A DNA stretch of 43,455 nucleotides, from NCBI GenBank assembly GCA_017478085.1, contig JAFVEE010000050.1, positions 1 through 43,455 of the forward strand. The letters are read 5' to 3'. The notes below the pieces were generated by a model. It worked only from the letters and a program-made list of their open reading frames with translations. It was not told the DNA's origin and made no database searches. Of this stretch, positions 28,089 through 43,455 are shown one piece after another. Numbering within the stretch: position 1 is the stretch's first letter; the number at the start of each line of letters is the position of its first letter. The translations under genes were made by a program, and so were the position numbers. The DNA is from Prevotella sp. (lineage in GTDB: Bacteria; Bacteroidota; Bacteroidia; Bacteroidales; Bacteroidaceae).

Positions 28089-31000
28089 TTAGAATCCTAC
28101 ATTCAGCGTCAGGGTGAACTGCTTCGAGCGCGGGGTCTTCGACTGGTCGCGAGCGGGGAAGTAGCCAGTGGCCGACACCTCGGGGTCGATGCCGCTGTAC
28201 TTGGTCCACACATAGAGGTTGTTCATCGAACCGTAGACCTGCAGGTTGCTCAGTCCGAGCGACTTCACCAGCTTCTTGTCGAACTGGTACGACAGCTGCA
28301 GGTTCTGGAAGCGCACGAAGCCACCGTCCTCTACGTAGCGGTCGCTGCCCTGGTAGTTGTAGGGCGAGCTGTTACCCGACACATACACGGCACGCGGCAT
28401 GGGCGTCACGTCGCCGTCCTGACGCCAACGGTAGTTGGTGGTTGCGCTCTGGTTGTTGGTGCCCGACATAGACTCCAGGTTCATACGGGCCAGATTGATG
28501 ATCTTGTTGCCGAAGCGGTAGTTGAAACGTCCCGTCACCTTCCAGGGGCCGTAGCGCAGGGTCAGGTTGAAGCCACCGTTCACCTTGGGCAGCGAGTTGC
28601 CTAAGTAGACCACGTCGAGGGCGTTGATCTGACCGTCGTGGTTGATGTCCTCATAAATCAGGTCACCACCCTGGAAGCGGTAGGTAGTGGTTCCACCAGC
28701 GCCGTCCGACACATAGTTGTAGACCATGCGCTGGGGCTCGCCGTTGCTGGTCATGATGACCTTGCCGTCTTCGCCCACGGCCACAGGGGCCGTATTGCCG
28801 CTGGCCAGGAAGTCGTTGATCCACTGCTCATACTCGGCGGTGCTCAGGTTGTGCTCCTTGCGGTAGTTCTGCAGATAGTCGAAGCCATACTGGAACACGC
28901 CGTGCGAGCGGAAGCCGTAGATAGAGCCCAGCGAGTTGTTCAGCTGCACGCGGATGGGGTAGCCCTGCTGCTCGCTGGTGTTGCTGCTCACGTAGTTACC
29001 ACGCACGGTGGCACTCCAGGTGTTGCCGTTGATGGCATCGAGCACGCTCTGATCCATCTCCTTCAGCAGGTTGCTGTTCTGAGCAATGTTGAAGCCGAAG
29101 TCGGCCGAGAACTTGCCAATCTTGATAAACTTCTTGGCGTTGAAGTTCATTTCCCAACCATCGTTGGTCATGCGGCCCACGTTGGCATACGACAGCGAGC
29201 CAAAACCCGTCATCGAGGGGATGCTCAGGCCCTGCAGCATGTCGGTGGTGTTCTTGTGGTAGTAGTCGAAGTCAATCTCAATCTTGTCATCGAACAGGCC
29301 CAGGTTGAAGCCCAGGTTGTAAGAGGTGGTCTTCTCCCAGCGCAGGTCGTCGAGCTTCAGACGCTCCAAGATGGCCGTGGCCTCGGTGTCGCGGCCCTTG
29401 CCGTAGGTGCTGTAGGAGGTGTTGTAGGCTTCGAAGAAGAGGTAGTCCTTATCCGGAGCGCGACCTACGATACCCCACGAAGCACGCAGACCCAGCATCG
29501 ACATAAACTTGCGGCTCCACTTCATAAAAGGCTCGTCGCTGATGTTATAGCGCAGCGACACGCCGGGGAAGTAGGCCCACTTGTTGTCGGGACCGAACTT
29601 CGAGTCGCCATCGGCACGCAGCGAGAAGTCCAGGATGTAGCGCTCCTTATAAGAGGTGACGCCGTGGAACAGCACGTTCTGCGAGTTGCTGCGCGAGTTG
29701 CCGCTCGAAGGACTGGTCGAGAGGTAAGCCTCGACCGTGGGCGAGGTGATGCCGTTGGGCAGGTGACTGGTGTTCACCTGCTGGGTGCTGCTGTTCTGCG
29801 TGTTCATCTCATAGCGGATGAGGGCCTGGGCCATCCAGTCCTGGTTGCGCAGGTAGGGACGGAACACCAGTTCGGCGCGGCCACCAATCTTCATACGGTT
29901 GTACTCGTAGTTGGTGCTCACGTTGTAGTCGGCCGTCGTCCAGTCGTTGGTGCTCAGCGAGGCAGGCCAGTAGGTGGGCTTGCTCTCGGCAAAGATATCG
30001 AAGTCAACACGACCATTGAACGTCAGTCGGCTCTTCTCGGCATCGGTGCCCAGGATCTCGTACTTGATGGTGAAGTCTGGCGTCAGGCGGTAGGTGCGGT
30101 CCTGCACCCAGGCCTCGTGGGCAATGGCAATGGGGTTGCCCATAGCCTGAATGCCACGCATGGCATACGACGAATAGGCACCGGCGTAAGGCGTGTAGTA
30201 GACGCCGCTACGGCCGGGCACACCCACCACGGGGTTCATCAGGTAGTACTCATTGGTGTCCTGACCATCGGGGGTCTGGCGGTAGATGCTCATATTAGGA
30301 GCAATGTTCTGGGCAATAGCCAGCAGCGACGAGTGATTGGTGCCGTTAATCTTGCCCTCGTAGTTCTTGTCGTTGTTGGTATAGGTCAGGGCGAAGTTGG
30401 TCAGGAAGCGAATGCGGTCTGACACGTTATAGTCCAGGGCCATACGGGTGGTGAACTGCTGGAACTTCTGCTCGATGATAGAACCCGTCTGGTGCTTGTA
30501 GCCGCCCGAGATGCGGAAGGTGGCCTTCTGGCCGCCACCCGTCAGGTTGACGTTGAAGTCGTGCATGGCACCAAACTGCTTCACGGCATCGACCCAGTCG
30601 GTGTTGTTGTTCCAGTTCTCATACTCGCCCCAGGTCTTGTCGTAGTTCAGCTCGGCCACCGTACTGGTGCTCGTAGAGCTCTGCGTGGCACGGTAGAACT
30701 CGTCCTTCAGCAGCATGGTGTAGTCGTCACCATTCAGCAGGTTGTAGCCATCGGGCTGCCAGGTTCCCGTGAACTTATAGGAGAAGTTCACGCGGGGTTT
30801 GCCACGGCTACCACGCTTGGTGGTAATCTCGATCACACCGTTGGCACCCTTCGAGCCCCACACGGCGGTGGCGGCGGCATCCTTCAGCACCTTGATGCTG
30901 GCAATATCCTCCACGTTCACCGAGAGCAGCGAGGAGTACTGTTCCTCGTCGGCATTGGCATAGTCGAAGTCCTCATCGGGATTGTCGAAAATCTTGTCGT

Positions 31001-31580
31001 CGACCACAATCAGGGGGTTGGCATTGGCGCTCAGGGTGGTCACACCACGCAGGCGCATCTGTGTGCCGGCACCCAGGTTACCAGAGTTCGACACGATGTC
31101 GAGACCGGCAATCTCACCCTGCAGGGCCTCGTCGGCCGAGGTGAAGGCCAGACCTTCCACCGATTCCATGTTCATCGTCTGCGTGGCCACGGCAATCTCC
31201 TTCTTGGCCAGCTGCAGGCCGCCCGAGCCGGCGCGGCGTCCCTTCACGGTGACTTCCTTCAGCACGGTGTTCTCGGCCTCAAGGGTAATCTTGAACGATG
31301 TCTGCGAGCCAATGTTCACGACCTTGGTCTTGTCGCCCACGTATGAGAACTTCAGCTTGTTCTTGGTACTCTTCACCTGCATGGAGAAGTTACCGTTGAA
31401 GTCGGTCTGCGTGGCCGACACGATACGGTTGTTGGCATCGACTTCCACGACGTTACCCATCATAATGGGGCCTTCGGCGTCGCTCAGCGTACCCGATATG
31501 CGCACTCCCTGCGCCACTGCCATCTGGCAGAGTACGCAAAGCAATGCGGTGGATAATGTTTTCTTGATATTCATATACAT
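28089..31580 (-). CDS. SusC/RagA-family TonB-linked outer-membrane protein (proximal pair)
   Basis: 1163 aa. Signal peptide about 1-24 (QMAVA-QG), a carboxypeptidase-like regulatory domain (about 25-100), 'LKEVTVKGRRAG' leading to the plug (about 110-260, with 'RLRGVTTLSANANPLIVVDD' and 'AVWGSKGANGVIEITTKRG'), then the beta-barrel ending in aromatic 'TLTLNVGF'. It forms the channel partner of the SusD gene at 26246-28039. The start could also be the ATG at 31574. It is second in the operon, 37 nt after the largest FAS1 gene. Confidence 0.95.
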   Translation of the reverse strand: MYMNIKKTLSTALLCVLCQMAVAQGVRISGTLSDAEGPIMMGNVVEVDANNRIVSATQTDFNGNFSMQVKSTKNKLKFSYVGDKTKVVNIGSQTSFKITLEAENTVLKEVTVKGRRAGSGGLQLAKKEIAVATQTMNMESVEGLAFTSADEALQGEIAGLDIVSNSGNLGAGTQMRLRGVTTLSANANPLIVVDDKIFDNPDEDFDYANADEEQYSSLLSVNVEDIASIKVLKDAAATAVWGSKGANGVIEITTKRGSRGKPRVNFSYKFTGTWQPDGYNLLNGDDYTMLLKDEFYRATQSSTSTSTVAELNYDKTWGEYENWNNNTDWVDAVKQFGAMHDFNVNLTGGGQKATFRISGGYKHQTGSIIEQKFQQFTTRMALDYNVSDRIRFLTNFALTYTNNDKNYEGKINGTNHSSLLAIAQNIAPNMSIYRQTPDGQDTNEYYLMNPVVGVPGRSGVYYTPYAGAYSSYAMRGIQAMGNPIAIAHEAWVQDRTYRLTPDFTIKYEILGTDAEKSRLTFNGRVDFDIFAESKPTYWPASLSTNDWTTADYNVSTNYEYNRMKIGGRAELVFRPYLRNQDWMAQALIRYEMNTQNSSTQQVNTSHLPNGITSPTVEAYLSTSPSSGNSRSNSQNVLFHGVTSYKERYILDFSLRADGDSKFGPDNKWAYFPGVSLRYNISDEPFMKWSRKFMSMLGLRASWGIVGRAPDKDYLFFEAYNTSYSTYGKGRDTEATAILERLKLDDLRWEKTTSYNLGFNLGLFDDKIEIDFDYYHKNTTDMLQGLSIPSMTGFGSLSYANVGRMTNDGWEMNFNAKKFIKIGKFSADFGFNIAQNSNLLKEMDQSVLDAINGNTWSATVRGNYVSSNTSEQQGYPIRVQLNNSLGSIYGFRSHGVFQYGFDYLQNYRKEHNLSTAEYEQWINDFLASGNTAPVAVGEDGKVIMTSNGEPQRMVYNYVSDGAGGTTTYRFQGGDLIYEDINHDGQINALDVVYLGNSLPKVNGGFNLTLRYGPWKVTGRFNYRFGNKIINLARMNLESMSGTNNQSATTNYRWRQDGDVTPMPRAVYVSGNSSPYNYQGSDRYVEDGGFVRFQNLQLSYQFDKKLVKSLGLSNLQVYGSMNNLYVWTKYSGIDPEVSATGYFPARDQSKTPRSKQFTLTLNVGF

Positions 31581-31617: not shown

Positions 31618-34557
31618 TTATTTACGCTTGCGCGAGAAGTACCTGCCGGTCGACTTGCTCAGCGGCTGCGAGATCTGGTGCACCACGCAGAACGACGAGG
31701 TGGTCACCGAGCTGGCATTGCGTGCCGCAGTGTTGTACCAGTAGTCGCGGGTCATCTTGTTGCTCAGCTTCGAGCCGTCGTTGGCATCAATGGTCACGGT
31801 CTTTCCCGAACCGTCGAGCACGTTCATCACGTTGGCACCGCCAGTGACGCGCAGCTCCAGGGCCACGCCCATCTCGTCGCTGGTCATGGTCTTGCAGCGG
31901 GGCGAGGTCAGGTCGATCACATTGTCGGCATAGACCGAACCGGTCACGAAGTGGTAGCGCACGAAGTCGCGGATGGCGTTGATCATGGCCTTGGCCTCAT
32001 CGCGGGCATCCTGCTCGGCAGGGCTTATCTCGTCGCTGCCCTCAGCATCGTCATCCTCCTGACCCACAAACTGCTGGTACAGGGCGCTCACGTCGCTCCA
32101 TCGGGGCAGTCCGTTGGCGTAGGCCAGCTCCATAGCCTCATTGTCGGGGGCGAAGAGGGTGTAATTATAGGTGTTGAACATCTTCACGTTGCGGTCCAGG
32201 CAAGACTCTTTCACGACAGTCGACCCCACACGATAGTCGCTGGTGAAGATGACGTAGGCATCCTGCTGGTTGGGGCCGTCCTGGTTGGTGCCACTGCGCA
32301 CGCTGGAGATTCCGGCCCAGTCGAGCAGGTCTTCACTGTCGAAGCCCGTGCACAGGTCGAGGAACTCCGAGAACTGCGAATTGCTGTTCAGCACGTTGTA
32401 GACACTGACCACGGGGGGCTGAACGACGCGGCTCAGGCGATAGGCATTACCGTTCTTCTCGTTGTAGATCTGGGTAATCTCGGGAGCGGGGAAGATGTCC
32501 TGCTGGTCAATCTGCGGACCCGACATCACCTTACCATTGATCAGGTGACCGTCGACCTTCACCTCGCCGCCATGCTTGGTCTTATAGAAATGGTTGCCGC
32601 TGGTGCTGATGGTAGGCAGGTCGCTGCCCGAACGCTCCGACGAGAGCACCACGGTGTGGTAGTTCAGAATGTCGACCAGCTGCCAGCGCACGTTGCGAAT
32701 CTCCTCCGAGCGAGCATCGCCCTCAATCTGGCCAGTCTCCATGTTGAAGTAGTAGCGCTCGCACTTCAAGGGCGGCTGCGTCTTCGATGCGGGGTCATAG
32801 TAGAAGTGGAGCACGTCGGGCAGGATGCGGCCCTGCACCTGGTTGTTCTCGCGGTGGCCCAGCGTGGCGGGGTCCAGATAGTACAGGTCGAAGGCGCTGT
32901 CGTCGGGAATGAAGAAAGCGTAGTTCGAGCTCATAGACAGCAGGTAGAACTTATAGTCGGCGTCCAGGTGGTAGGGAGCATCGGTGCTGCTGCCACGGTC
33001 TTGCACGGCCCAGTTCATCACACGCATGTCGGGATAGACCGATGCGGGAGCCAGTACGGCGTTGTACTCGTCGGGGGCGATGAGCTCCTTCAGCACATAG
33101 ACGGCACCGTTGTTGGCAAAGGTGATGTCGTACTTGTTGTCACTGGTCTTCTCAATCAGGTCTACGGTGAGGCCCATGTTTTCCGAGGCATCGTTCAGCA
33201 CGGTCTCGAACTTGCTGGGCACCGAGGCCACGAACGAGGCCTTCATCAGGTTGTTGATGAATGCCGTGAGCACCTGCGGGTTCTTCGAGTGCAGCGAGTC
33301 CAGGTTCTCCATCAGGTGGGCCTCGTTGTTCTCGTTGTCCTTGTAGTTGCCATAAATATCAAAGAGGTAGGCACCGGGACCCTTGTCGGTGGCGCTGCGC
33401 TGGGTGAAGTAGTTCACCATAGCCTCGTTGCTGGGCACGAACATGGCACCCATGTCCATGATGCTGTAGTCAATGCCGCTCGAAGCGTTGGCGGGGCTGG
33501 GATAGTAGGAGTTCCAGCCCGGGTCGAAGTTCAGCACATTCGAGATGTTCTGGCCATTGATACGGGTCAGGGGGCCTATCGTGCTGTTCTCAGCGTCGGC
33601 CGAGCGGTTGCTGATGTAGCGCAGGGCGTAGAGCGTCTTGTCGGGCAGTGCGGGGCTCTGCTGGCGGGCCCACTCATTGTAGTTGTTGGTCCAAGTGGGC
33701 ACGGCGATGGGCACTGCAAAATAGTCAAGTATGCGGCTGAAGTAGCTGGTGTTGCTCTTACGGCGCAGCACCTGGGCCATGTTGCCGGGAGGCACCACCA
33801 CCTCGCTCATCTGGTGTATATAGCCGTTCTGGCAGGTCACGTCGGGCACCTCCACGCGGTCGTTGAAGATGTAGGCCGTCTTGGCATCCTCAGGATAGGG
33901 CGTGCCCGTCAGAATCTCGAAGTCGCTGCCGTCGCCCGTGTTGGTGATGCCGTTGTTCACCATAAACTCGCGGGTCAAGTGAATCATCATAGGCTGTGTG
34001 GCGTCGCTCACCACGTCGATGCCCGTGTCGTAGAACTGCTCCCAGTAGGCGTTGTTGGCCGGCATGCCGTCCTTGCCGCCGATGTGCTGCACGGTGTCGA
34101 TGACACTTACGTTGGTAGAGTGCTTCAGGGCCTGACCGTTCAGGGGCTCAGCAGTACCGTTGCTCACGTTGGGCAGCAGCTGCAGCAGCAGCGGGTTGTC
34201 GAGCATCGAGGAGTAGAGCAGCAGTTTCTTCTGACCGGTCGACAGCTCTTCATAGCTGCTCACGCCCCAGTCGTTGTTGGCGAAGAACCGGCCGAAGGCC
34301 TCGTCGTTGGCGGGGAACACCGTCTTCGATCCCGTGCGGCTCAGGGTCTCGTCCTCGCCGAGATCCTTGATCAGCCGCAGGTAGGTCGAGAAGGTGCCTT
34401 GCAGGCCCGACGCTGCGCTCGGATTCTCCAGTTCCGCATAGATGCTTGAGCCCAGCCATTCGGGCTTGCTTTCCGCATCTACCTCTTCGTACTTGTCTAC
34501 GCAAGAGGTCATCAATCCCGTCATAGCGAGAGAGACACAGAAAAAGATTTTCTTCAT
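31618..34557 (-). CDS. Large fasciclin (FAS1)-domain lipoprotein, 979 aa
   Basis: First gene of the Sus/FAS1 operon. Lipobox Cys at 19 (LMTSCVDKYEEVDAE) with a KYEE acidic export-type motif. At least four FAS1-type motifs are visible: 'TVFPANDEAFGRFF' near 79, 'MFVPSNEAMVNYF' near 371, 'FFIPDDSAFDLYYLD' near 550 and 'YTLFAPDNEAMELAY' near 803, with 'NGYIHQMSEVVVPP' and 'NGAVYVLKELIAP' as partner motifs. I chose the ATG at 34557 because the predicted transcription start (about 34624) lies too close to the in-frame ATG at 34626. The several modules suggest an extended adhesive surface protein. Confidence 0.86.
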   Translation of the reverse strand: MKKIFFCVSLAMTGLMTSCVDKYEEVDAESKPEWLGSSIYAELENPSAASGLQGTFSTYLRLIKDLGEDETLSRTGSKTVFPANDEAFGRFFANNDWGVSSYEELSTGQKKLLLYSSMLDNPLLLQLLPNVSNGTAEPLNGQALKHSTNVSVIDTVQHIGGKDGMPANNAYWEQFYDTGIDVVSDATQPMMIHLTREFMVNNGITNTGDGSDFEILTGTPYPEDAKTAYIFNDRVEVPDVTCQNGYIHQMSEVVVPPGNMAQVLRRKSNTSYFSRILDYFAVPIAVPTWTNNYNEWARQQSPALPDKTLYALRYISNRSADAENSTIGPLTRINGQNISNVLNFDPGWNSYYPSPANASSGIDYSIMDMGAMFVPSNEAMVNYFTQRSATDKGPGAYLFDIYGNYKDNENNEAHLMENLDSLHSKNPQVLTAFINNLMKASFVASVPSKFETVLNDASENMGLTVDLIEKTSDNKYDITFANNGAVYVLKELIAPDEYNAVLAPASVYPDMRVMNWAVQDRGSSTDAPYHLDADYKFYLLSMSSNYAFFIPDDSAFDLYYLDPATLGHRENNQVQGRILPDVLHFYYDPASKTQPPLKCERYYFNMETGQIEGDARSEEIRNVRWQLVDILNYHTVVLSSERSGSDLPTISTSGNHFYKTKHGGEVKVDGHLINGKVMSGPQIDQQDIFPAPEITQIYNEKNGNAYRLSRVVQPPVVSVYNVLNSNSQFSEFLDLCTGFDSEDLLDWAGISSVRSGTNQDGPNQQDAYVIFTSDYRVGSTVVKESCLDRNVKMFNTYNYTLFAPDNEAMELAYANGLPRWSDVSALYQQFVGQEDDDAEGSDEISPAEQDARDEAKAMINAIRDFVRYHFVTGSVYADNVIDLTSPRCKTMTSDEMGVALELRVTGGANVMNVLDGSGKTVTIDANDGSKLSNKMTRDYWYNTAARNASSVTTSSFCVVHQISQPLSKSTGRYFSRKRK

Positions 34558-34630
34558 AAATTTGTTTTTATTAGCTAATATAATTTGTTTTGTATTTCGC
34601 GAAATGTCAGTAGTTGTTTGGTTCAAAGTG

Positions 34631-34662
34631 CAAAATAACTAAAAAAAAATGAATCAGCCAAA
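34631..34662 (-). promoter_or_regulatory. Promoter of the seven-gene FAS1/Sus operon
   Basis: Minus-strand TTATTTTG (34631-34638), 20-nt spacer, TTTG (34659-34662). The -7 box differs from TAnnTTTG by one base. It leaves a leader of about 67 nt before the ATG at 34557. Confidence 0.5.
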
Positions 34663-34710
34663 AAATCCATCCACAATTATTGACATTTCCCTACAATTTT
34701 TGTAAATCGG

Positions 34711-35667
34711 TTATTTTGAAAAACGCACCACTTCACTCGGTTCGATACCAAGCCGTTTTGCAATGTCCTCGTCGGTCACCCCCATTTCCTGTAGCACTTG
34801 TATCGACAAACGTAATGCGTTGTCCTTCTCCTGCAATTGTGCCTGCTGGTCGTCCAACTTCGCCTTCTGTTGCTTCAGTTGGGCGTTTTGTTCGGCTATT
34901 TTTTTTGCATTTAGCATAATCTCAGTATCCCGTTTCTCAAGGACCGAGCAGTACAATTCTTCAGCATCCATATCCTGCTGGATAGCAGCATCGCTGGCAG
35001 CCATCAGCAGCCGGTGCAGAATGGGCTGCATCTCGTCATCGTTCTGGTAGAGGGTGTCATCGATGTTCAGGAAGTGCTCACTGCGCCTGTCTGAACGGGT
35101 CTGGTCAAAGACACTAAGCACCTTCTCCAGCCTGTTGTTGACCTGTCCGCGCAACCGTGGTATCTGTACAATGATGCTATCGTGGGTCAGACTATCTACA
35201 AAGGGATTGGGCAGCCCTTTGGTCACACGGTTCTCATTGTAGTCGTACGCATCATGGCGCACATAAATAACGGGCTCTTCTATGTCGCCCACCTTGTGTC
35301 CCAGAATGTAGACGGCCACCATAGGTATGGCATAGCCCTCCTTGCTGTTCTCTATAAGGTTTTCCTTACGTTGATACTGCACTCCCAGATATTGGCGGAA
35401 GCGCAGCGTCTCGGTCTCCAGCCACGTCTTCTGCACCTCTATCAGGACGATGTGTTCACTGCCGTCGGCCTCACGGACGGTGGCCGAGAAGTCTATACGG
35501 AACATCGACAACGTGTCTCGCATGCTGTTACTATACTCGTGAGGGCGCACCTTCACACTCACCACATCCATCTTTGTCAGGGCCGACAGGATGGTCTTCG
35601 CTACGCGAGTGTCTTCCATCAGGAACTTGAACACCGAATCGTAGATGGGGTTGGCTATGGTCATCAT
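34711..35667 (-). CDS. Second Rpn/PD-(D/E)XK nuclease-family protein
   Basis: 318 aa. The N-terminus 'NPIYDSVFKFLMEDTRVAK' and the catalytic-type segment 'RIDFSATV...EHIVLIEVQKTW' (about 53-77) fit the PD-(D/E)XK family often annotated as a transposase or Rpn nuclease. Residues about 240-290 form a Gln/Lys-rich coiled coil ('QNAQLKQQKAKLDDQQ'), and the C-terminus has a helix-turn-helix-like 'MGVTDEDIAKRLGIEPSEV'. It is a different subfamily from the gene at 12563-13513 but has the same overall plan. It has its own promoter at 35698-35729. Confidence 0.82.
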   Translation of the reverse strand: MMTIANPIYDSVFKFLMEDTRVAKTILSALTKMDVVSVKVRPHEYSNSMRDTLSMFRIDFSATVREADGSEHIVLIEVQKTWLETETLRFRQYLGVQYQRKENLIENSKEGYAIPMVAVYILGHKVGDIEEPVIYVRHDAYDYNENRVTKGLPNPFVDSLTHDSIIVQIPRLRGQVNNRLEKVLSVFDQTRSDRRSEHFLNIDDTLYQNDDEMQPILHRLLMAASDAAIQQDMDAEELYCSVLEKRDTEIMLNAKKIAEQNAQLKQQKAKLDDQQAQLQEKDNALRLSIQVLQEMGVTDEDIAKRLGIEPSEVVRFSK

Positions 35668-35697
35668 TGCTTCTTATATGTTTTTAGGCGTTGGCTG

Positions 35698-35729
35698 CAA
35701 AGATACGAAGTTTTTGCCGAACAGCCAAA
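35698..35729 (-). promoter_or_regulatory. Promoter of the second Rpn-like gene
   Basis: Minus-strand TATCTTTG (35698-35705), 20-nt spacer, TTTG (35726-35729), 31 nt before the ATG at 35667. Confidence 0.65.
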
Positions 35730-35740
35730 TGTTGTGTAAT

Positions 35741-35773
35741 AAAAAATCGGGGGCGCCTGTCTGGCGTCCCCGA
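35741..35773 (-). terminator. Intrinsic terminator after the minus-strand secreted paralogue
   Basis: Hairpin 35747-35773 with 11-bp arms (tcgggggcgcc / ggcgtccccga, one G-T pair) and a short loop. On the minus strand it is followed by a T-run (35741-35746). Confidence 0.75.
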
Positions 35774-35807
35774 AATTACAAATACAAATATATGCGTGTG
35801 CGATGCG

Positions 35808-38678
35808 TTACTTCGCCATGTACTTCTTGCCGTTCATGATGTAGAGGCCCTTGGCAGGCTTGCTGTTCAGGCGCACACCCATCAGGTTGTAGATGGCGTT
35901 GTCGGCCTTCTCGGCAGCCACGGTGGCGATGCCTACATTCTGGTCGATGCCAGCAGCCGAAGACTTGTACTTCACAATCTTCAGGTTGTCGAACCAGCTG
36001 CGACGGCCAGTGTTATCGTAGTTCGAGCTGATCACGAACTTAGCAATCTTGTTGTCCTCGAGCGTGTTGTTCAGAGCCACGCGGCCACCGTTCTTCATAC
36101 CCTTCGGGCTCACGGGCAGCAGTGCCTGAGCAGTGTTGGCCTTGTAGTCGATGATGAGGTCGAACGACCACTTATACTTGTCGCTCAGGATCACGGCATT
36201 TTCATCCTTGCCCGTGCTCACGCCGCAAGAAGGAATGTTCAGACCCTCGCCAGCAGCATTGTCGAAGTCGTTGTAGCTGGTAGAGCCACCATAGAGGCTA
36301 TAGTCGAAGCCTGCCACACGCTGGCCGGCAGCATTCTGCAACTCAATGACAACCGAGCGGTTGATAAGAGCACCGAACCAAGCATCGAAAGTAGTGCGAA
36401 TCACGTCCTCGTCAGTGGGAATGTCGCCCTCAGCCAGGTTCACGGTAGCCGTGCCCTTACCAATGCGCAGCACGTCGCCGTTCACGACCTCGGCACCGCC
36501 GCAACCCAGTGCGAACGTGGTCTGGTCATTAGCGAACGTTCCATCCTCATTGGCATACACGCTGGCCACAGTGAAGTTCATCTGGTTCACGGCACCCTTG
36601 ATGGCATAGCCAGTAATCGTCTCCTCAAAGCCATTCTCCTCGTCGCCAACCATTTCCTTGATGGGTTCGAAGCCGTTAGAGAAATCGATGTCAACAATAG
36701 GAGTCAGCACGGGCACGCTTGCGATGAAAGCATCCTCGGCAGCCTTCAGCGTCTCGACGGCAGCCAGCACGGCAGCCTCGTCGGCCTCGCGGGTGGCATC
36801 GGTGCTGTTGGCCTTGGTGTTGTCGAGCAGCGTCTGGGCAGCATCGATGGCAGCCTTGAAGGTATTCTTGTCGCCCAGCTGGTTCAAGTCGTCGTTCAGC
36901 TTCTGGGTAGCCTTGTCAATTTCGGTTGCCAGGTCGGCCAGAGGCTGGTTCTGAGCCTTCACATAGTTGGTGGCGTTCTGATAGCCGCGCGACAGCTGGA
37001 ACTTCAGCATGTTGCCCTCTTCGTCGAACATCTGCACGCCATGGTAGTCGGCCCAGTCTTTCAGCTCATCGATGGTAGCCACACGGGTGTCGCTGCCGTC
37101 CTCGGCCACCCAGCCCTTGGCCATGATGGCGTTGTAGTAGGGATCCCACTGGTCCAGGGCACGCTGTAGCGAGTCCTTCTCCCATGGATAGTTGTTGTCG
37201 CTCTGCATGGCAATCAGGTTCTTGCGGGCGCTCACCACAGCGTTGTACTGTGTAATGAAGGTAGCCCACGCTGCGGCACGCTCGGCCTCGGCGGCCACGT
37301 TGCCGAAGGCACGGCACTCGAAGTTATAGATGTGGAAGCCCGAACCGGCGTTGTGGCCTTCCCACCTGAAGCCAGCCTCGAAGGTTTCACCCTCCTTCAG
37401 CTCGCCCACCATATAGAACTTGGTGAAGTCCTCGCCTACGATGGTACCGCAGTCTACGGTGTCGGTGCCCACGAAGGCCTTCACGTTCTTCTCCATCGAG
37501 TAGGTGTAGTTGTAGTTGTTGTCCATATAGCCGTTGCGCATCTCGGCAGCGATGTAGTACTTGCCGGCAGGCAGCGTGGTGTTGTAGAGGGCCACTGAAG
37601 CACCAGGGTTGTTGTAGCTGCCTTGGATGGCGCACTGCACGTAGACACCGCCCTGGCCGTGCTGCCAGTTGGTCTCGCCACCAGTGGCCACACCGTCCTG
37701 GCGGAACATGAAGCCGCCCTGCGTCTGGTTGCCCTTGATACTCTTTCGGTTCAGCTTAGGCATAGCCGTGAGGTCGGTCACATACTTGAAGTTGGCCTCA
37801 GTAGCCATATTGTCGGACGAAGCATCCATAAAGGCAGCCAGGCCCTCGTCGAAGGCTGTCATCAGGTTGTCGGCTTCCGATTCGTCTTCAAGACCGACAG
37901 CCAGATCTTCCTGCAAAGCCTGGTGCACATACATAAACTCTTCCTTGGCAGCCTGAGCCTGCTCGGTGTTGAAGTTCTCGTCGGCCAGGATCTTGTTGGC
38001 CCATTCCAGCTTGCGCAGGGCAATGCGGTCGTCGAACACCGGAGTAGCCTTGTGAATCTCGAAGTTGGTAATCTGTGTGCCCGTCTTCAGTTTCTCGAAG
38101 TGCATCACCAGCATCTGACCCTCGTCGGGAGTGAACACGAACGACACGTTCGTCCATCCCTCATTGAAGGCCGTGGCCGTAGCCACATTCACCACAGGAG
38201 CATCGTCGGTGCTCTTGGCGTGAGTCAGCGAACCGTCGCTGTTCAGGAAGAAGTCGGCGCAGTTGTTGGAGATGACCTTTGTGCCTTTCGAGTTGTAAGT
38301 AGTGATCGTGGTCGACTCATAGCCTGAGGTGCTCTTGATGTCGAACGACACAATGTAGGTCTGGCCACCCTCGAAGTTTCCCCAGATGTTGCCCAGTACC
38401 TCGTCGGCAGTAGCGCCCTGCGACTCAATACCTGCTTCGCCATTGGGGCCGATGCCATCCATTACCTTCCATACGTCAGGACTCACCTGGCCATCAACGG
38501 CCATACTCGTCCAACCACCTACAGCCAGACCCTCGGCAAAGGTTCCGTTCTGCACGAGGTTCTCACCAGCGATTTTCACTCTCTGCGTCTTGGTGTAGGC
38601 ATACTGGCCCACCTCGTAGGCCTGGGCACCCATCACACCAAACATTGCAAGAGCAGCAAGAAGTAGTTTTTTCTTCAT
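35808..38678 (-). CDS. Secreted modular protein with CBM4/9-like N-terminus (paralogue A)
   Basis: 956 aa. Signal peptide about 1-20 (GVMGAQA-YE). Residues about 38-205 resemble a galactose-binding-like CBM4/9 fold ('ENLVQNGTFAEGLAVGGW', 'YIVSFDIKS'). A second beta module lies about 335-460 and a helical region about 465-690 ('NAVVSARKNLIAMQSDNNYPWEKD'). A C-terminal beta domain follows, then the tail 'YNLMGVRLNSKPAKGLYIMN', which resembles type IX-secretion or surface-sorting tails. No catalytic signature is seen, so a binding or adhesin role is inferred. It is closely related along its whole length to the divergent gene at 39989-42856. The recombinase-linked site lies 79 bp before the ATG. 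Confidence 0.8.
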   Translation of the reverse strand: MKKKLLLAALAMFGVMGAQAYEVGQYAYTKTQRVKIAGENLVQNGTFAEGLAVGGWTSMAVDGQVSPDVWKVMDGIGPNGEAGIESQGATADEVLGNIWGNFEGGQTYIVSFDIKSTSGYESTTITTYNSKGTKVISNNCADFFLNSDGSLTHAKSTDDAPVVNVATATAFNEGWTNVSFVFTPDEGQMLVMHFEKLKTGTQITNFEIHKATPVFDDRIALRKLEWANKILADENFNTEQAQAAKEEFMYVHQALQEDLAVGLEDESEADNLMTAFDEGLAAFMDASSDNMATEANFKYVTDLTAMPKLNRKSIKGNQTQGGFMFRQDGVATGGETNWQHGQGGVYVQCAIQGSYNNPGASVALYNTTLPAGKYYIAAEMRNGYMDNNYNYTYSMEKNVKAFVGTDTVDCGTIVGEDFTKFYMVGELKEGETFEAGFRWEGHNAGSGFHIYNFECRAFGNVAAEAERAAAWATFITQYNAVVSARKNLIAMQSDNNYPWEKDSLQRALDQWDPYYNAIMAKGWVAEDGSDTRVATIDELKDWADYHGVQMFDEEGNMLKFQLSRGYQNATNYVKAQNQPLADLATEIDKATQKLNDDLNQLGDKNTFKAAIDAAQTLLDNTKANSTDATREADEAAVLAAVETLKAAEDAFIASVPVLTPIVDIDFSNGFEPIKEMVGDEENGFEETITGYAIKGAVNQMNFTVASVYANEDGTFANDQTTFALGCGGAEVVNGDVLRIGKGTATVNLAEGDIPTDEDVIRTTFDAWFGALINRSVVIELQNAAGQRVAGFDYSLYGGSTSYNDFDNAAGEGLNIPSCGVSTGKDENAVILSDKYKWSFDLIIDYKANTAQALLPVSPKGMKNGGRVALNNTLEDNKIAKFVISSNYDNTGRRSWFDNLKIVKYKSSAAGIDQNVGIATVAAEKADNAIYNLMGVRLNSKPAKGLYIMNGKKYMAK

Positions 38679-38757
38679 AATACTGTTTTAGTTTGTTAAT
38701 TGAATAATAAATGAATAATATATCGATTCTTAGCTTCGTTGTTCTTAGTAGTGGCGT

Positions 38758-38784
38758 GTGCAGTGTTGGCGGGCAACACTGCAC
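38758..38784 (+). repeat. Left 27-bp recombinase-type site
   Basis: Perfect 11-bp inverted arms (gtgcagtgttg 38758-38768; caacactgcac 38774-38784) around an asymmetric 5-bp core GCGGG. The reverse complement of 39881-39907 matches it at 25 of 27 positions. This is the size and form of a tyrosine-recombinase core site. Confidence 0.75.
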
Positions 38785-38811
38785 TATATGGTATAGTATT
38801 CTGATACCGAT

Positions 38812-38819
38812 GCAAAAAT
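38812..38819 (-). promoter_or_regulatory. Candidate outward -7 element inside the segment, facing paralogue A
   Basis: Minus-strand TATTTTTG followed by CATCGG, the same extension seen at other promoters in the window. It lies 28 bp inside the left site and would transcribe across that site into the gene starting at 38678. No TTTG is found at the usual distance, so support is partial. Confidence 0.4.
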
Positions 38820-38886
38820 AGCCTATTTTTACGAGATGGCATCGTGTTTTTTGCTTTTTCTACTATGTTTTTTTGATTATTTAACC

Positions 38887-39816
38887 TTATTCAGCGGATT
38901 GCATAAGGAACTTGCCGAAGTGCTCCATATCGCGCGAAAGCTTCTGGAGCGTTATTTTGGCGTAGATTTGCGTGGTGGTGATATTGGTGTGGCCCAGCAC
39001 GCGGCTGACGCTCTCGATGGGTAGGCCCGCATTCAGCGCGATGACGGCGAACGTGTGGCGGGCACAGTGGAAGGTGATGTGCTTCTGGATGCCACAGGCC
39101 TGCATGATGAGTGGTATGTACTTGGCCACCGTGCGATAGGTCAGCGGCCCGAAGAGCGGCCCCTCGTCGTGGCGGTGGTGTCGTAGAATAGTGAGCGCGG
39201 GCTACAGCAGCTTCACGTAGAAGGTGGTCTGCGTCTTGTGGCGGCGGGCCTGAATCCAGGGCTCGCCGTTAATGTCGCGAATGTCTTCCGAGCGTAGGTG
39301 GCAGATGTCGATGAAGGCCATTCCCGTGAGGGCCGAGAACACGAACACGTCGCGATAGAAGGCGTGCCGCTCGTTGTCGAAGGCGTGGTCCATGAGCTGT
39401 TTCAGCTCCCGCTCCGTGAGGTACTCGCGCTCGCGTATGTTCTTGCTAATGTGGAAGTTATAGAACGGGTTACTCTGGATGACGCCCCGCTGACAGGCCT
39501 GCGCCACCACCCCCTTCAGGTGTTGGCAGGCCAGCCACACCGTGCCTCCGCGCAGGCGGCGGCGCGTGCTCAGGAAGGTGGCAAAATCGCTGATGAAGCT
39601 GGGCGTCAGCTCGTCGAGCCCGATGTCGGGCCGTTGCAGTTGGTTGGTCAGAAAGTCTACCATGTGTCGGCGCAGCAACCGCCGACGCTTCAGCGTGCTC
39701 GCTGCCCGGTCGATGCCCACACGCAGCTGCAACTGCTGCAAGTCGTGATCATAGCTTTCAAGCAGGGTAGGCATCGCCCCTGCATTGACAGTGGTGTACA
39801 TAGTTGTTTTCATCAT
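38887..39816 (-). pseudogene. Tyrosine recombinase interrupted by one in-frame TAG
   Basis: The frame is continuous from ATG 39816 to TAA 38887-38889 (309 codons) apart from a single TAG at 39202-39204. Residues 1-204 contain the arm and SAM-like domains and 'ALTGMAFIDICHLR', the Bacteroidetes variant that lacks the usual first Arg. After the TAG come the catalytic 'FHCARHTF' (HxxR), 'LGHTNI' (His) and 'QIYAKI' (Tyr nucleophile). The truncated 204-residue product therefore cannot be active. The local reading 'KLL-stop-PAL' suggests CAG changed to TAG. A complete enzyme would be made only by readthrough, reversion or suppression. It lies between two inverted 27-bp sites. Confidence 0.85.
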
Positions 39817-39825
39817 AATAAATAA

Positions 39826-39843
39826 TAATGTACGCGTACATTA
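39826..39843. promoter_or_regulatory. 18-bp perfect palindrome before the recombinase gene
   Basis: taatgtacgcgtacatta reads the same on both strands and ends 10 bp upstream of the recombinase ATG. It is a good shape for a dimeric repressor operator, possibly autoregulatory, though no regulator can be named. Confidence 0.5.
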
Positions 39844-39871
39844 ATTTTAGTTTGATTGGTTAGTGTAAGTT

Positions 39872-39879
39872 TAGTTTTG
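39872..39879 (+). promoter_or_regulatory. Candidate outward -7 element inside the segment, facing paralogue B
   Basis: TAGTTTTG immediately before the right site, with a TTTG at 39851-39854 and a 17-nt spacer, shorter than the usual 19-20. A second -7-like TAAATTTG (39920-39927) lies outside the segment with no -33 box. Which, if either, drives the gene at 39989 is uncertain. Confidence 0.35.
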
Positions 39880-39880
39880 T

Positions 39881-39907
39881 GTGCAGTGTTGCCCGCCAAC
39901 TATGCAC
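39881..39907 (-). repeat. Right 27-bp recombinase-type site, inverted relative to the left
   Basis: Arms gtgcagtgttg (39881-39891) and caactatgcac (39897-39907) around the core CCCGC, the reverse complement of the left core. The two mismatches to the left site are both in the outer arm; the inner arms are identical. Confidence 0.75.
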
Positions 39908-39988
39908 GGTGAAAGCTACTAAATTTGACGAGACAAGCAACAAAACGTTTAATTCACTTACTTTACTAATCCAAAAAAACTAAAATTT

Positions 39989-42856
39989 ATGAAGAAAAGA
40001 CTACTTTTTGCAGCTTTTGCGATGGTAGGTGCGCTCAATGCCTCGGCTTTCGAGGTGGGCGACTACGTCTACACCACTTCGCAAAGACTGAAGATTACGG
40101 GCGACAACCTCGTACAGAATGGGAACTTCGCCGCCGGCCTTGGCGAGGGCGGCTGGGTGAGCAGCGCTGCCGATGGTAGCGTGAACCCCGACGTGTGGGG
40201 CATTGTCAATGGCGAAGGCCCCAACGGCGAGGATGCCCTGCAGAGCAAGGCTGCCACCGAGGGTGAGTCGCTCTGCAACGTGTGGAGCACCCTGACCGGC
40301 GGTACCACCTACATCGTGTCGTTCGACATCAAGGCCGAGGCCGACGGCAACTCGAGCAGCGTGGGCGAGACCATTGGTACCAACTACGTGGGCTTCTTCC
40401 TGAACGGCGACGGCAACCTGACCCAGGTGGCTACGGCCGATGACGCCCCCGTAGCGGGCGTGGCTACGTCGTTCCTCATCAAGAGCGAGTGGCAGACCAC
40501 TTCGTTCGTCTTCACGCCCGACGAGGGCCAGCAGCTGGTCATGCACTTAGAGCGCCTGGCCACGGGCACGCTCATCACCAACATCTCGATTCACCCCGTC
40601 GACATCGTGTTCGACGACCGCATTGCCCTGAACAAGCTGGCCTTTGCCGACAAGCTGCTGAACGATCCCAACTTCAACACCGAGCAGGCTCAGGCCGCCA
40701 AGGAGGAGTTCGTGGGCAGCGTGTATGCCGCTCTGCAGGAAATGGTGAACACCCCCGGTGCCCTGGACGATCCTTCGGAGGGTGAGGGCGTCATCGAGGC
40801 CTTCGACCAGATGCTGGGCGACTACCTCGACGCTTCGAGCCGCCGTATGAACGACCAGCTGGCCGGTACCGACAACGTGGAGAGCCTGGCCGTGGTAGGC
40901 CGTGGTGCCAACCGTCCGGCCACCTACGCCAACCTGGACCTCTGGGGTGGCAACTGGGGCCACGTCAGCGGTGCAGACTACCTGCAGTCGTCTATCCAGA
41001 ACGGCTATGCCCACTCGGCTACCTACAACGTGTTCAACAAATACTTCCCCGCTGGCAAGTACTACTTCACCGCCGAGATTCGCAATGCCAACACGGGCAA
41101 GGACTCGTGGCCTACCACTCCGACCTTCAACCTGGAGACGGTGTGTAAGATCTTCGTAGGCAGCGACACCCTGAACACCGACACCATCGCAGGCGAGGCT
41201 TTCCAGAAGTTCTACATCGTGGGCGAGATTACCGAGGAAGGTGCCTTCCGCGCTGGCGTGGAGTGGCCCGGCGTGAGCAGCGGTGGCTCGTTCTTCATCA
41301 AGAACGTTGAGGTGCGCGCCTTTGGCGATGCCGACGAGATCATTGCCAAGATAGAGCACTCGCAGGCCTTCGAGACCTACACCACGCAGTACAACGCTGC
41401 CGTGAGCGCCTACGAGGCTGTGCGCACGAAGGTAGACAACGGCAACTATCCTTGGGACCAGCAGGTGCTGCGCGATGCCAAGGCTAAGTACGACCCCATC
41501 TTCGACGCTCACCGTGCCAAGGGCTGGATTGATGCCGACGGCAATGACACTGGCGTGGCTTCGACCGAGGAGCTGAACGACTGGGCTCTGTATCAGGACG
41601 TTGAGGAGTATAGCACGAGCGTCGATGCCGAGACGGGCGTTGAGACGCAGACCCGACTGGAGTACCAGATTGTGCGCGGCTATCAGGCTGCCAGCAACAC
41701 CGTGATTGCCACCAACCAGGTGATTACCGACCTGGCCAACGCCATCGACGCTGCCAAGGCTACCCGCAACCTGGGTGCATACGCCACGGGCGACCGCGAG
41801 ACCTATAAGGCTGCCATCCTGAAGGCTATCGAGAGCATCACCACCATCCGCTCGAACACTACCGACGCTACCCGCGTGGCCGACTCTACCAGCCTGCGCG
41901 CCGCTCAGGACGAGCTGGCCGCTGCCACCGAGGCCTTCCTGGCATCGGTATCGCTGAAGCCCTTCGCCGACATCGACTTCTCGAAGGGTGTGACCGTCGA
42001 GACCGACCCCGAAAGCGGTGCTGACAAGTACGTGGCATACGGCGAGGCCGGAAGCATTGTACTGGGCAACTACGAAGATACCGCAGCTGGCACCAACGGC
42101 ACCAGCTTTGCACTGGGCCGCTACGAGAACGATGCCGTTTCGCTGCCCGACGTGCTGCGCATAGGCAATGGCACCGCCACGGTGACCGTGCCTGAGGACC
42201 TGATTCCCGGCGACGAGTCGACCTTCCGTGCTACCTTCGACATCTGGTTCGGCAACCTCTCTGGCAAAAACACCTACGTAGAACTGCGCAATGCCGCCGG
42301 CGAGCGCGTGGCTGGCTTCAGCCTGAACCGCTACAACGGTTCGCTTGCCTACAACGACTTCAACGACGTGCTTTCCAATGGCGGTACGGGCATGAACGTG
42401 CTGCAGTATGCCACGGGCGTGGGTTCGAGCAGTGCCAGCAATACGGCCATCTGCGTCGACAACAACCGCACTTCGTTCGACCTGACCATCAACTACGCCA
42501 ATGGCACCGTGCAGGGCACGATGGTGAACCCGCAGCGTGGTACCAACGAGGGTGCTGAGCAGCCCCTCAACGCCGCGCTGACCGACAACAAGGTGACTCA
42601 GTTCGTGGTAGGCTCGAACTACAACAATGGCGACCGCCGCTGCTGGTTCGACAACCTGAAGCTCTACAGCTTCGTGGGTGGCAACCTGGAGGAGGACATC
42701 ATGCAGAGCCCGTGGGCCGAGGTGAGCGGCATCGCCACCGTGAACGCTGCCCAGCAGTTCAATGGTGCCATCTACTCGCTGCAGGGTGTGCGTCTGAACG
42801 CCAAGCCCAACAAGGGTATCTACATCATGAACGGTAAGAAGTATGTGGTGAAGTAA
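39989..42856 (+). CDS. Secreted modular protein with CBM4/9-like N-terminus (paralogue B)
   Basis: 955 aa, with the same plan as paralogue A: signal peptide about 1-20 (GALNASA-FE), CBM4/9-like module ('DNLVQNGNFAAGLGEGGW', 'YIVSFDIKA'), second beta module (about 320-455), helical region (about 460-655), and a C-terminal beta domain ending in 'RCWFDNLKLYSF' and the tail 'YSLQGVRLNAKPNKGIYIMN'. Signal peptides and tails are nearly the same as in A, while the module at about 290-350 differs strongly (A has 'GGFMFRQDGVATGGETNWQ' there). It may bind a glycan or protein ligand different from that of A. The ATG is 81 bp from the right 27-bp site, mirroring the 79 bp of A. A terminator follows at 42882-42916. 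Confidence 0.8.
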   Translation: MKKRLLFAAFAMVGALNASAFEVGDYVYTTSQRLKITGDNLVQNGNFAAGLGEGGWVSSAADGSVNPDVWGIVNGEGPNGEDALQSKAATEGESLCNVWSTLTGGTTYIVSFDIKAEADGNSSSVGETIGTNYVGFFLNGDGNLTQVATADDAPVAGVATSFLIKSEWQTTSFVFTPDEGQQLVMHLERLATGTLITNISIHPVDIVFDDRIALNKLAFADKLLNDPNFNTEQAQAAKEEFVGSVYAALQEMVNTPGALDDPSEGEGVIEAFDQMLGDYLDASSRRMNDQLAGTDNVESLAVVGRGANRPATYANLDLWGGNWGHVSGADYLQSSIQNGYAHSATYNVFNKYFPAGKYYFTAEIRNANTGKDSWPTTPTFNLETVCKIFVGSDTLNTDTIAGEAFQKFYIVGEITEEGAFRAGVEWPGVSSGGSFFIKNVEVRAFGDADEIIAKIEHSQAFETYTTQYNAAVSAYEAVRTKVDNGNYPWDQQVLRDAKAKYDPIFDAHRAKGWIDADGNDTGVASTEELNDWALYQDVEEYSTSVDAETGVETQTRLEYQIVRGYQAASNTVIATNQVITDLANAIDAAKATRNLGAYATGDRETYKAAILKAIESITTIRSNTTDATRVADSTSLRAAQDELAAATEAFLASVSLKPFADIDFSKGVTVETDPESGADKYVAYGEAGSIVLGNYEDTAAGTNGTSFALGRYENDAVSLPDVLRIGNGTATVTVPEDLIPGDESTFRATFDIWFGNLSGKNTYVELRNAAGERVAGFSLNRYNGSLAYNDFNDVLSNGGTGMNVLQYATGVGSSSASNTAICVDNNRTSFDLTINYANGTVQGTMVNPQRGTNEGAEQPLNAALTDNKVTQFVVGSNYNNGDRRCWFDNLKLYSFVGGNLEEDIMQSPWAEVSGIATVNAAQQFNGAIYSLQGVRLNAKPNKGIYIMNGKKYVVK

Positions 42857-42881
42857 TCCTTCCCCCTACCCTATTTTCCTC

Positions 42882-42916
42882 AGCGAGGGAGCGCCCCAGA
42901 CGGGTGTTCCCTCGCT
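42882..42916 (+). terminator. Intrinsic terminator after paralogue B
   Basis: Hairpin with 9-bp arms agcgaggga / tccctcgct plus inner pairing, followed by tcgtttt. It lies 25 nt after the stop codon. Confidence 0.7.
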
Positions 42917-42926
42917 TCGTTTTCCA

Positions 42927-43030
42927 ACCGACCGCTCCGTTCTGTTGCAACGGAGCCTCCGTTGTCAGCAAACGGAGCGCTCCATTGATTCGTAACGGGG
43001 CCTCCATTGCTCCCCAACGGAGCCCCTTTT
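42927..43030. repeat. Second array of AACGGnGCCTCCnTT palindromic units
   Basis: Units start at about 42927 (degenerate), 42949, 42971, 42994 and 43016 with a 22-23-bp period, the same family and spacing as the array at 16792-16894. No ORF is present. Confidence 0.75.
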
Positions 43031-43152
43031 CACTAATCGAGATAAATGAGCCTTTTCACTAATCAAGATAAATGGGCTTTTTCACTAATTGGGACAAATG
43101 GCTTTTCACTAATTGTGAGAAATATAATTCACTAATTGAGAGAAATATAATT
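43031..43152. repeat. Tandem array of five CACTAAT-type units
   Basis: cactaat begins at 43031, 43057, 43083, 43107 and 43130 (periods 26, 26, 24, 23). The typical unit is cactaattgagagaaat plus a variable tail. AT-rich and non-coding. Confidence 0.75.
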
Positions 43153-43171
43153 CTCTGAACTTTCCCACCCT

Positions 43172-43319
43172 AAAGAAAGCCCTGTAGGGTAAGTGTAGAT
43201 GCCTGGGGAGGCGGCATACCCTTATGAAAAGCAGTAAAAGAAAGCCCTGTAGGGTAAGTGTAGATGCCTGGGGAGGCGGCATACCCTTATGAAAAGCAGT
43301 AAAAGAAAGCCCTGTAGGG
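43172..43319. repeat. 65-bp tandem repeat, two full copies plus a partial third
   Basis: Units 43172-43236 and 43237-43301 appear identical; a third begins at 43302 (aaagaaagccctgtaggg) and then passes into the long-palindrome element. Open frames across it are by-products of the repeat. Confidence 0.8.
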
Positions 43320-43322
43320 GCT

Positions 43323-43455
43323 TAATAGGGGTAGCCAGCCATACAGCCGTGCCGTAGGTACGGCGAAATGGCTGGTTAAAAGATGGCATAGGGAAGCGTG
43401 CCTTTAGGTACGCGATAACCCGCTGCTTCAGTCGCGTACCTAAAGGCACGCAGGC
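43323..43455. repeat. Long nested palindrome, copy 2, cut by the window end
   Basis: The sequence is nearly the reverse complement of 3568-3702. It contains an outer arm (ataggggtagccagccatac...) and both inner arms (gcgtgcctttaggtacgcga and its complement). The second outer arm would lie past the window end. Orientation is opposite to copy 1. Confidence 0.8.

Follow-up and report, generated by a model that had tools for sequence, protein, structure and literature searches.

The window, meaning the whole stretch of 43,455 nucleotides of Prevotella DNA that was analysed, belongs to a MAG of 3.13 Mb that is 76.6% complete. Within it, two genes, A and B, were found to diverge from a segment bounded by two inverted sites, S1 and S2, and carrying a gene for a tyrosine recombinase (Table 1). 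An earlier reading made from the letters alone (hereafter the sequence-only reading) had described A and B as full-length paralogues, and the comparison of the two proteins agrees, with 47% identity, and 43.7% by BLASTP over 981 columns. Its label of CBM-like fared less well: CBM_4_9 does match both proteins, at scores of 22.9 and 22.0, but each score lies under the Pfam cut-off of 25.9. Protein A has a signal peptide, as judged by eye, and a C-terminal stretch common to other proteins of the MAG; when protein B was compared by sequence profile with solved chains, only 43 C-terminal residues matched, to an arabinanase. In a tree of A, B and their homologues across genomes (best two candidates at most scored per genome), A joined L151, L160, L149 and L147 (92/100), and B joined L142 B', L143 to L146, L148, L150 and L157 (90/98), with neither group reaching the star of the tree tool. 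This placement suggests that A and B represent two old lineages and not a recent duplicate.

Table 1. Features of the locus, in window coordinates
Feature	Position	Strand	Remarks
SusC-like receptor gene	28089-31580	-	neighbour, counted outside the putative switch
Fasciclin-domain protein gene	31618-34626	-	neighbour, counted outside the putative switch
Gene A	35808..38678	-	956-aa surface protein; weak CBM_4_9; faced by the candidate promoter in the present assembly
Site S1	38758..38784	-	forward reading GTGCAGTGTTG GCGGG CAACACTGCAC; gene-sense GTGCAGTGTTG-CCCGC-CAACACTGCAC; gene A leader; presumed recombination site
Segment between S1 and S2	38785..39880	.	presumably invertible
Promoter -7 word TATTTTTGC (TAnnTTTGC)	38812..38820	-	inside the segment, towards gene A, 142 nt from its ATG
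Tyrosine recombinase gene	38887..39816	-	PF13102 and PF00589; in-frame TAG at 39202-39204
16-bp perfect palindrome AATGTACGCGTACATT	39827..39842	.	directly ahead of the recombinase start codon
Weak promoter-like word TAGTTTTGT	39872..39880	+	abuts S2, towards gene B
Site S2	39881..39907	+	GTGCAGTGTTG-CCCGC-CAACTATGCAC; inverted copy of S1; gene B leader; presumed recombination site
TAAATTTG	39920-39927		outside S2, in the gene B leader; caveat to a one-sided promoter
Gene B	39989..42856	+	955-aa paralogue of A; leader without TAnnTTTGC word in the present orientation
Terminator-like hairpin	42882..42916	+	3' of gene B; weak evidence

The hairpin beyond gene B counts as weak evidence because the scan that found it gave fewer such sites than its shuffles. 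Past gene B, near the contig end (43025-43455), five direct repeats of ~25 bp were observed, together with a hairpin of 20-bp arms and a 65-bp direct repeat of which two copies are complete and a third has only its start. On the other side of the locus, a 318-aa ORF without a Pfam match (34711-35667) recurs near A/B genes at 70-71% identity (L142:2366-3388; L156:12719-13573) and is possibly mobile. A search of Rfam with positions 34000-43455 gave no match at E <= 0.1.

Inverted sites, an interrupted recombinase gene and a one-sided promoter word

The sequence-only reading had S1 and S2 as 27-bp inverted sites matching at 25 of 27 positions and lying 79 and 81 bp from the two start codons; both the match and the distances were reproduced. 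With random bases, a match of 25/27 over 400 x 400 placements has a chance of ~3e-8. Each site is a near-palindrome, its arms pairing at 11/11 positions in S1 and 9/11 in S2, so that only the 5-bp core and two letters of the arms give a site its direction. With up to three mismatches allowed, S1 and S2 were the only places in the MAG (76.6% complete) to fit the palindrome, and the same search found it in none of 59 other relatives. Flipped junctions of the segment were sought in the MAG assembly, and none was found.

A tyrosine recombinase is indeed encoded in the 1.15-kb segment, as the sequence-only reading had it, but the ORF is not intact, an in-frame TAG having been overlooked; the frame runs from 39816 to 39202, meets the TAG there, and is then open in the same frame to 38887. 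PF13102 was recognized in the N-terminal piece (1.4e-11) and PF00589 in the C-terminal piece (1.2e-14), the homologue at L142 matching PF00589 at 1.2e-21, and the best solved relative in a profile search was XerA (6e-14). The protein thus has both the catalytic domain and the SAM-like core-binding domain of the tyrosine recombinases (PF00589). With the catalytic positions assigned from what we take to be the motifs of this family, H-x-x-R, H and Y are present in the window copy as HCAR, GHTN and QIYA, and are kept in the rows shown of the short clade described below, except in L203, which is truncated there by a contig end. The first catalytic arginine, presumably the one that follows the TG motif, is replaced by A or S in all 17 alignment rows shown; IntDOT likewise lacks the first catalytic arginine. 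The other 12 rows at >=302 bits carry no internal stop. In view of the TAG, a switch in the window may be locked with its promoter towards gene A; the TAG may, however, be an assembly error, be suppressed, or be bypassed by a recombinase acting in trans. The palindrome AATGTACGCGTACATT ahead of the recombinase start codon is a possible operator for that gene.

The word TAnnTTTG[CT], which we take to be the Bacteroidales -7 promoter element, was found within 200 nt of the ATG in 19/19 relatives of A and B that have no adjoining recombinase of the family, within the stretches examined. In the window, the strong word TATTTTTGC points towards A, and the words on the side of B are weak (TAGTTTTGT) or outside the site (TAAATTTG), from which A is predicted to be on and B off or weak. 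By shuffling, the chance of a TAnnTTTG[CT] word in the gene B leader was 0.053. The locus thus has the form of an inverton, with inverted sites around a segment that holds an outward promoter, as recognized by its consensus word. The same one-sidedness recurs in relatives: the word lies inside the site on the 3' side of the recombinase at all ten loci counted (nine paralogue loci and L198), and on the 5' side at one of the ten, the window itself, as the weak TAGTTTTGT. Excluded from this count was L196, which has words on both sides and SusC-like copies 99.5% identical; at L194, where no divergent paralogue was found, three promoter words stand on the 5' side of the recombinase. A sigma-70 scan of 35600-43455 found no promoter of the E. 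coli type.

Relatives of the fasciclin and SusC genes of the window adjoin all four loci with its class of site. Control of this cluster by the putative switch was considered: of 11 gaps preceding the fasciclin gene, seven contain a TAnnTTTG[CT] word, in four cases no more than 100 nt from the coordinate taken for that gene, which makes separate fasciclin-SusC promoters likely in some relatives. No such word was present in the corresponding gap of the window, L145, L146 or L148.

Recurrence and orientation of the segment in relatives

The genus was searched with the intact recombinase of L142 in 398 genomes, those of the window and of the query included, with at most the five best candidates scored per genome. 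Matches at E <= 1e-70 were obtained in 61 of the 398. Thirteen of them form a distinct set scoring >=302 bits, their frames measuring 296 to 355 aa, and a fourteenth, L203, is truncated where its contig ends; given the number of candidates scored, the clade comprises at least 14 loci. In a tree of 30 rows (the 14 of the short clade and 16 longer relatives), the 14 grouped together (100/99), and the four loci with the site of the window (the window, L142, L192 and L199) formed one subgroup (100/99). Among 294 other genomes of the order, with at most the seven best candidates scored per genome, four matches were found at E <= 1e-82, each a longer form (frame of 413 to 453 aa).

The flanking genes were compared under the rule that two ORFs within five on each side face away and align by BLASTP over at least 100 residues. 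Divergent paralogues were found by this rule at 11/14 clade loci (the window, L142, L093, L192, L193, L196, L197, L198, L199, L200 and L201) versus 1/33 loci of longer relatives, the controls being 33 of 38 such loci, with ORFs on both sides in 25 of the 33 and several from the same genome. The one control that satisfied the rule, L097, aligned over 119 residues at 29%, and with at most three ORFs on each side no control (0/33) remained. The clade loci at which no divergent paralogue was found are L194, L195 and L203, the last having no ORF on one side, at a contig edge. The flanking proteins belong to unlike families. Nine are SusC-like, with a TonB-receptor Plug domain (L093, L193, L194, L196, L197, both at L198, L200 and L201), and at L093, L193, L197, L198, L200 and L201 the next genes are paralogous on both sides as well; from their place and length, these second pairs were taken for SusD. 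Proteins of the A/B type flank the segment at the window and L142, and a distant form does so at L192 (24 and 26% to A and B); at L199, the flanks are a 577/598-aa pair, lipoproteins by eye, without a BLASTP match to A or L192.

Some segments hold further genes: one for an AAA-ATPase_like/PDDEXK_9 protein at L142 (7488-9071), one for a DUF6169 protein at L192 (10583-11080), and three further ORFs on the reverse strand of L198 (10608-14867). L196 (G451:C20) is a whole contig of 9.4 kb in which SusC-like copies 99.5% identical flank the recombinase. Promoter words occur to either side of it, and no site was recognized; an assembly artefact and a recent gene conversion are possible readings of these near-identical copies.

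In gene sense, the site of the window class reads GTTG-SCCGC-CAAC with longer degenerate arms, which pair at 7 to 11 of 11 positions. A census of the 398 genus genomes with a pattern built from the known sites returned 14 places in 10 genomes, against 1 for the reversed pattern. Eight of these places are the sites of the window, L142, L192 and L199, in four inverted pairs, which were expected because the pattern was built on them; one is the leader of an A-like gene in G345 (L149), and five lie inside unrelated coding sequences. No further inverted pair of this class was found elsewhere in the 398 genomes. The core is identical within each pair (CCCGC in the window and L192, GCCGC in L142 and L199), though at L192 and L199 this identity may reflect recent copying, so that only the window and L142 are informative on the core. 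At the SusC-type loci L093, L193, L197, L198, L200 and L201, another word, ATACTTAAGT or ATACTTAACGGTTAAGTAT, was found near both start codons; it occurs once in L195 and is absent from L194. The sequence-only reading had held that loci where the recombinase is kept and the sites are missing would tell against a switch, and this was observed in part: the recombinase of L194 stands beside a SusC-like gene with neither site word, and L195 has only one word. Sites of the window class without a nearby recombinase were also observed: a complete one in L149, a degenerate one in L151 and, as judged by eye, a remnant in L147; these are either relics of lost switches or an older feature of the leaders. 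Between promoter and site, the leaders of L093, L197, L198 and L200 share a conserved stretch around CCATTGCGGGTCC.AGGGGCTTGGC.TGGAAGG; L193 and L195 have different leaders, in which a tiny ORF occurs.

If a segment is present once between two copies of a gene, similarity outside the site should stop at the site. At eight loci, each end was read in the sense of its gene and compared with the other, over 80 nt on the inner side of the site and at most 80 nt on the outer side, coding bases included. In six of them (L192, L199, L093, L193, L197 and L200), homology between the gene copies stopped at the site, with outer z values of 13 to 21 and inner values of -0.8 to 2.1. The window and L142, with outer z of 3.4 and 3.3 and inner z of 1.7 and 1.6, were uninformative because their gene copies have diverged.

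Comparison of L093 with L198, loci from a pair of species, bears on orientation. Of two SusC-like genes at L093, one is faced by the leader with the promoter and the second stands on the promoterless side; the closest match of this second gene at L198 (79%) stands on the promoter side there, and its leader gave a local score of 169 with the promoter leader of L093 versus 19.5 with the promoterless one. The orthologous SusC-like gene thus appears to face opposite ends of the segment at the two loci, although the partner genes are only ~45% identical and a larger rearrangement is possible. L193 and L201 have the same orientation. Two further comparisons were rejected as proof of inversion: the window and L142 are opposite relative to the fasciclin-SusC cluster but the same relative to gene B, and of L194 and L195, the former lacks the site word and the latter has only one.

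A candidate promoter-inversion switch and its alternatives

Taken together, these observations make it very probable that the locus is a self-contained, cis-encoded promoter-inversion switch that selects either A or B, with A on in the present case and the switch perhaps locked. The tyrosine recombinase encoded within the segment would act on S1 and S2, recombining them at their 5-bp core and thereby flipping the DNA between them. A single promoter, which lies immediately within the site near the 3' end of the recombinase gene and at whose word transcription presumably starts, would then drive either gene A or gene B, and each cell would make one of two alternative surface proteins. An invertible switch with its promoter swapped between two paralogous genes had been proposed by the sequence-only reading, and the proposal gained support both as an architecture and by comparison, from the recurrence of the clade, the one-sided promoter, the break in homology and the orientation of L093 and L198. 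Counted against it were the interrupted recombinase, the replaced first arginine, the failure to find a flipped junction in the MAG, the recombinase-free sites, the loci L194, L195 and L203 where no divergent paralogue was found, the promoter words of L194 on the 5' side of the recombinase, L196, the shared orientation of the window and L142 relative to gene B, the divergence of the gene copies at these two loci, which hides any break in homology, and the words that B has of its own.

The strongest alternative, which we rate as possible at somewhat below even chances, is that the window holds a relic, that is, a former switch with a dead recombinase, its promoter fixed towards A and B silent or weakly expressed. 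The in-frame TAG is consistent with this, as is the search of the MAG (76.6% complete) for a substitute enzyme, in which neither the N-terminal part of the window protein (E <= 1e-20) nor the L142 enzyme (E <= 1e-70) gave another match among the candidates scored. Against decay, however, the frame past the TAG is open and aligned to its end with H-x-x-R, H and Y kept, and gene B retains a full-length frame; the TAG may also be an error of assembly, or another gene may provide the enzyme in trans.

The notion that the palindromes are a common operator or an mRNA hairpin in regulatory leaders, with the recombinase there by chance, was tested by arm pairing, gene family and census and appears improbable. 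It would account for the sites in the leaders of those A-group genes that lack a neighbouring recombinase (L149, L151 and L147) and for the complete pairing of the S1 arms, but the pairing is not conserved across the class, inverted site pairs were found in the 398 genomes only around one recombinase subclade and around unlike genes, and the promoter was not duplicated along with the leaders, homology stopping at the site. That the segment is a small mobile element, its recombinase bounded by terminal repeats, which entered between duplicated genes, is slightly less probable still: the nearest longer relatives of the recombinase are integrase-like proteins of ~410 aa, and the segments of L142, L192 and L198 carry extra genes, but the ends are inverted near-palindromes, the segment stands between divergent paralogues in 11/14 loci and holds the promoter word of one, and among the viral matches listed (at least 80 loci) none exceeded 39% identity over most of the protein.

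Returning to the promoter-inversion switch, a broader proposal seems to us rather more probable than its denial. Prevotella would hold a lineage of portable toggle cassettes, each with a recombinase, its own sites and one promoter, set between alternative alleles of different surface-gene families (SusC/SusD, CBM-like and lipoprotein) and enforcing either-or expression. A and B of the window would be two old lineages brought together and not the products of a recent duplication, and the type of site would follow the recombinase subclade and not the gene family.

Relation to known systems

Promoter inversion is well known in Bacteroides. Tsr0667 of Bacteroides fragilis is a tyrosine-class recombinase, and shufflons of its type have more than two sites and several silent cassettes. 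The locus in the window resembles that system in combining a site-specific recombinase, DNA inversion (here presumed) and alternative outer-membrane proteins in the Bacteroidales, and differs from it in having one recombinase gene inside one segment with two sites; with up to three mismatches allowed, two sites were found in the MAG (76.6% complete), fewer than a shufflon has. As described in passages of PMC4747536, Tsr0667 is a master invertase responsible for multiple inversions of the shufflon type at three SusC/SusD clusters and nine other regions; the source cited for this SusC/SusD shufflon is Nakayama-Imaohji 2009, which appears in the reference list of PMC12632263. Passages of PMC4747536 also describe Tsr19 (BF2766) of B. 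fragilis, which has two promoters as its targets, one local and one distant, and whose gene lies near the local one. Like the enzyme presumed to act in the window, Tsr19 is a tyrosine recombinase that flips a promoter for surface products; unlike it, Tsr19 exerts on/off control and does not choose between two divergent paralogues.

The Hin switch of Salmonella likewise has its recombinase gene inside the invertible segment, Hin being a serine recombinase whereas the enzyme of the window is of the tyrosine class. A passage of PMC5903667 notes that recombinases are occasionally found inside the invertible segment and names Hin as an example. More generally, serine and tyrosine invertases, SusC/SusD shufflons and invertible promoters of Bacteroides are treated in portions of PMC12632263, PMC11892184, PMC4747536, PMC12548429, PMC10939037, PMC8138268 and PMC5903667. 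An arrangement such as that described here was not found for Prevotella in the titles or abstract openings among the matches listed, a scope that leaves out most subscription journals. In the present case, a recombinase gene is found within the segment and one promoter apparently chooses between two surface proteins, in relatives of rumen Prevotella. If inversion is confirmed, these loci would amount to a compact collection of recombinases with their sites, and would offer an explanation, open to test, for the maintenance of two surface-protein versions in such populations beside one SusC-type cluster.

In the sap switch of Campylobacter fetus, two paralogous surface-protein genes diverge from an invertible segment that carries a single promoter. 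The locus in the window appears to share this plan; the sap switch is larger and is RecA-dependent.
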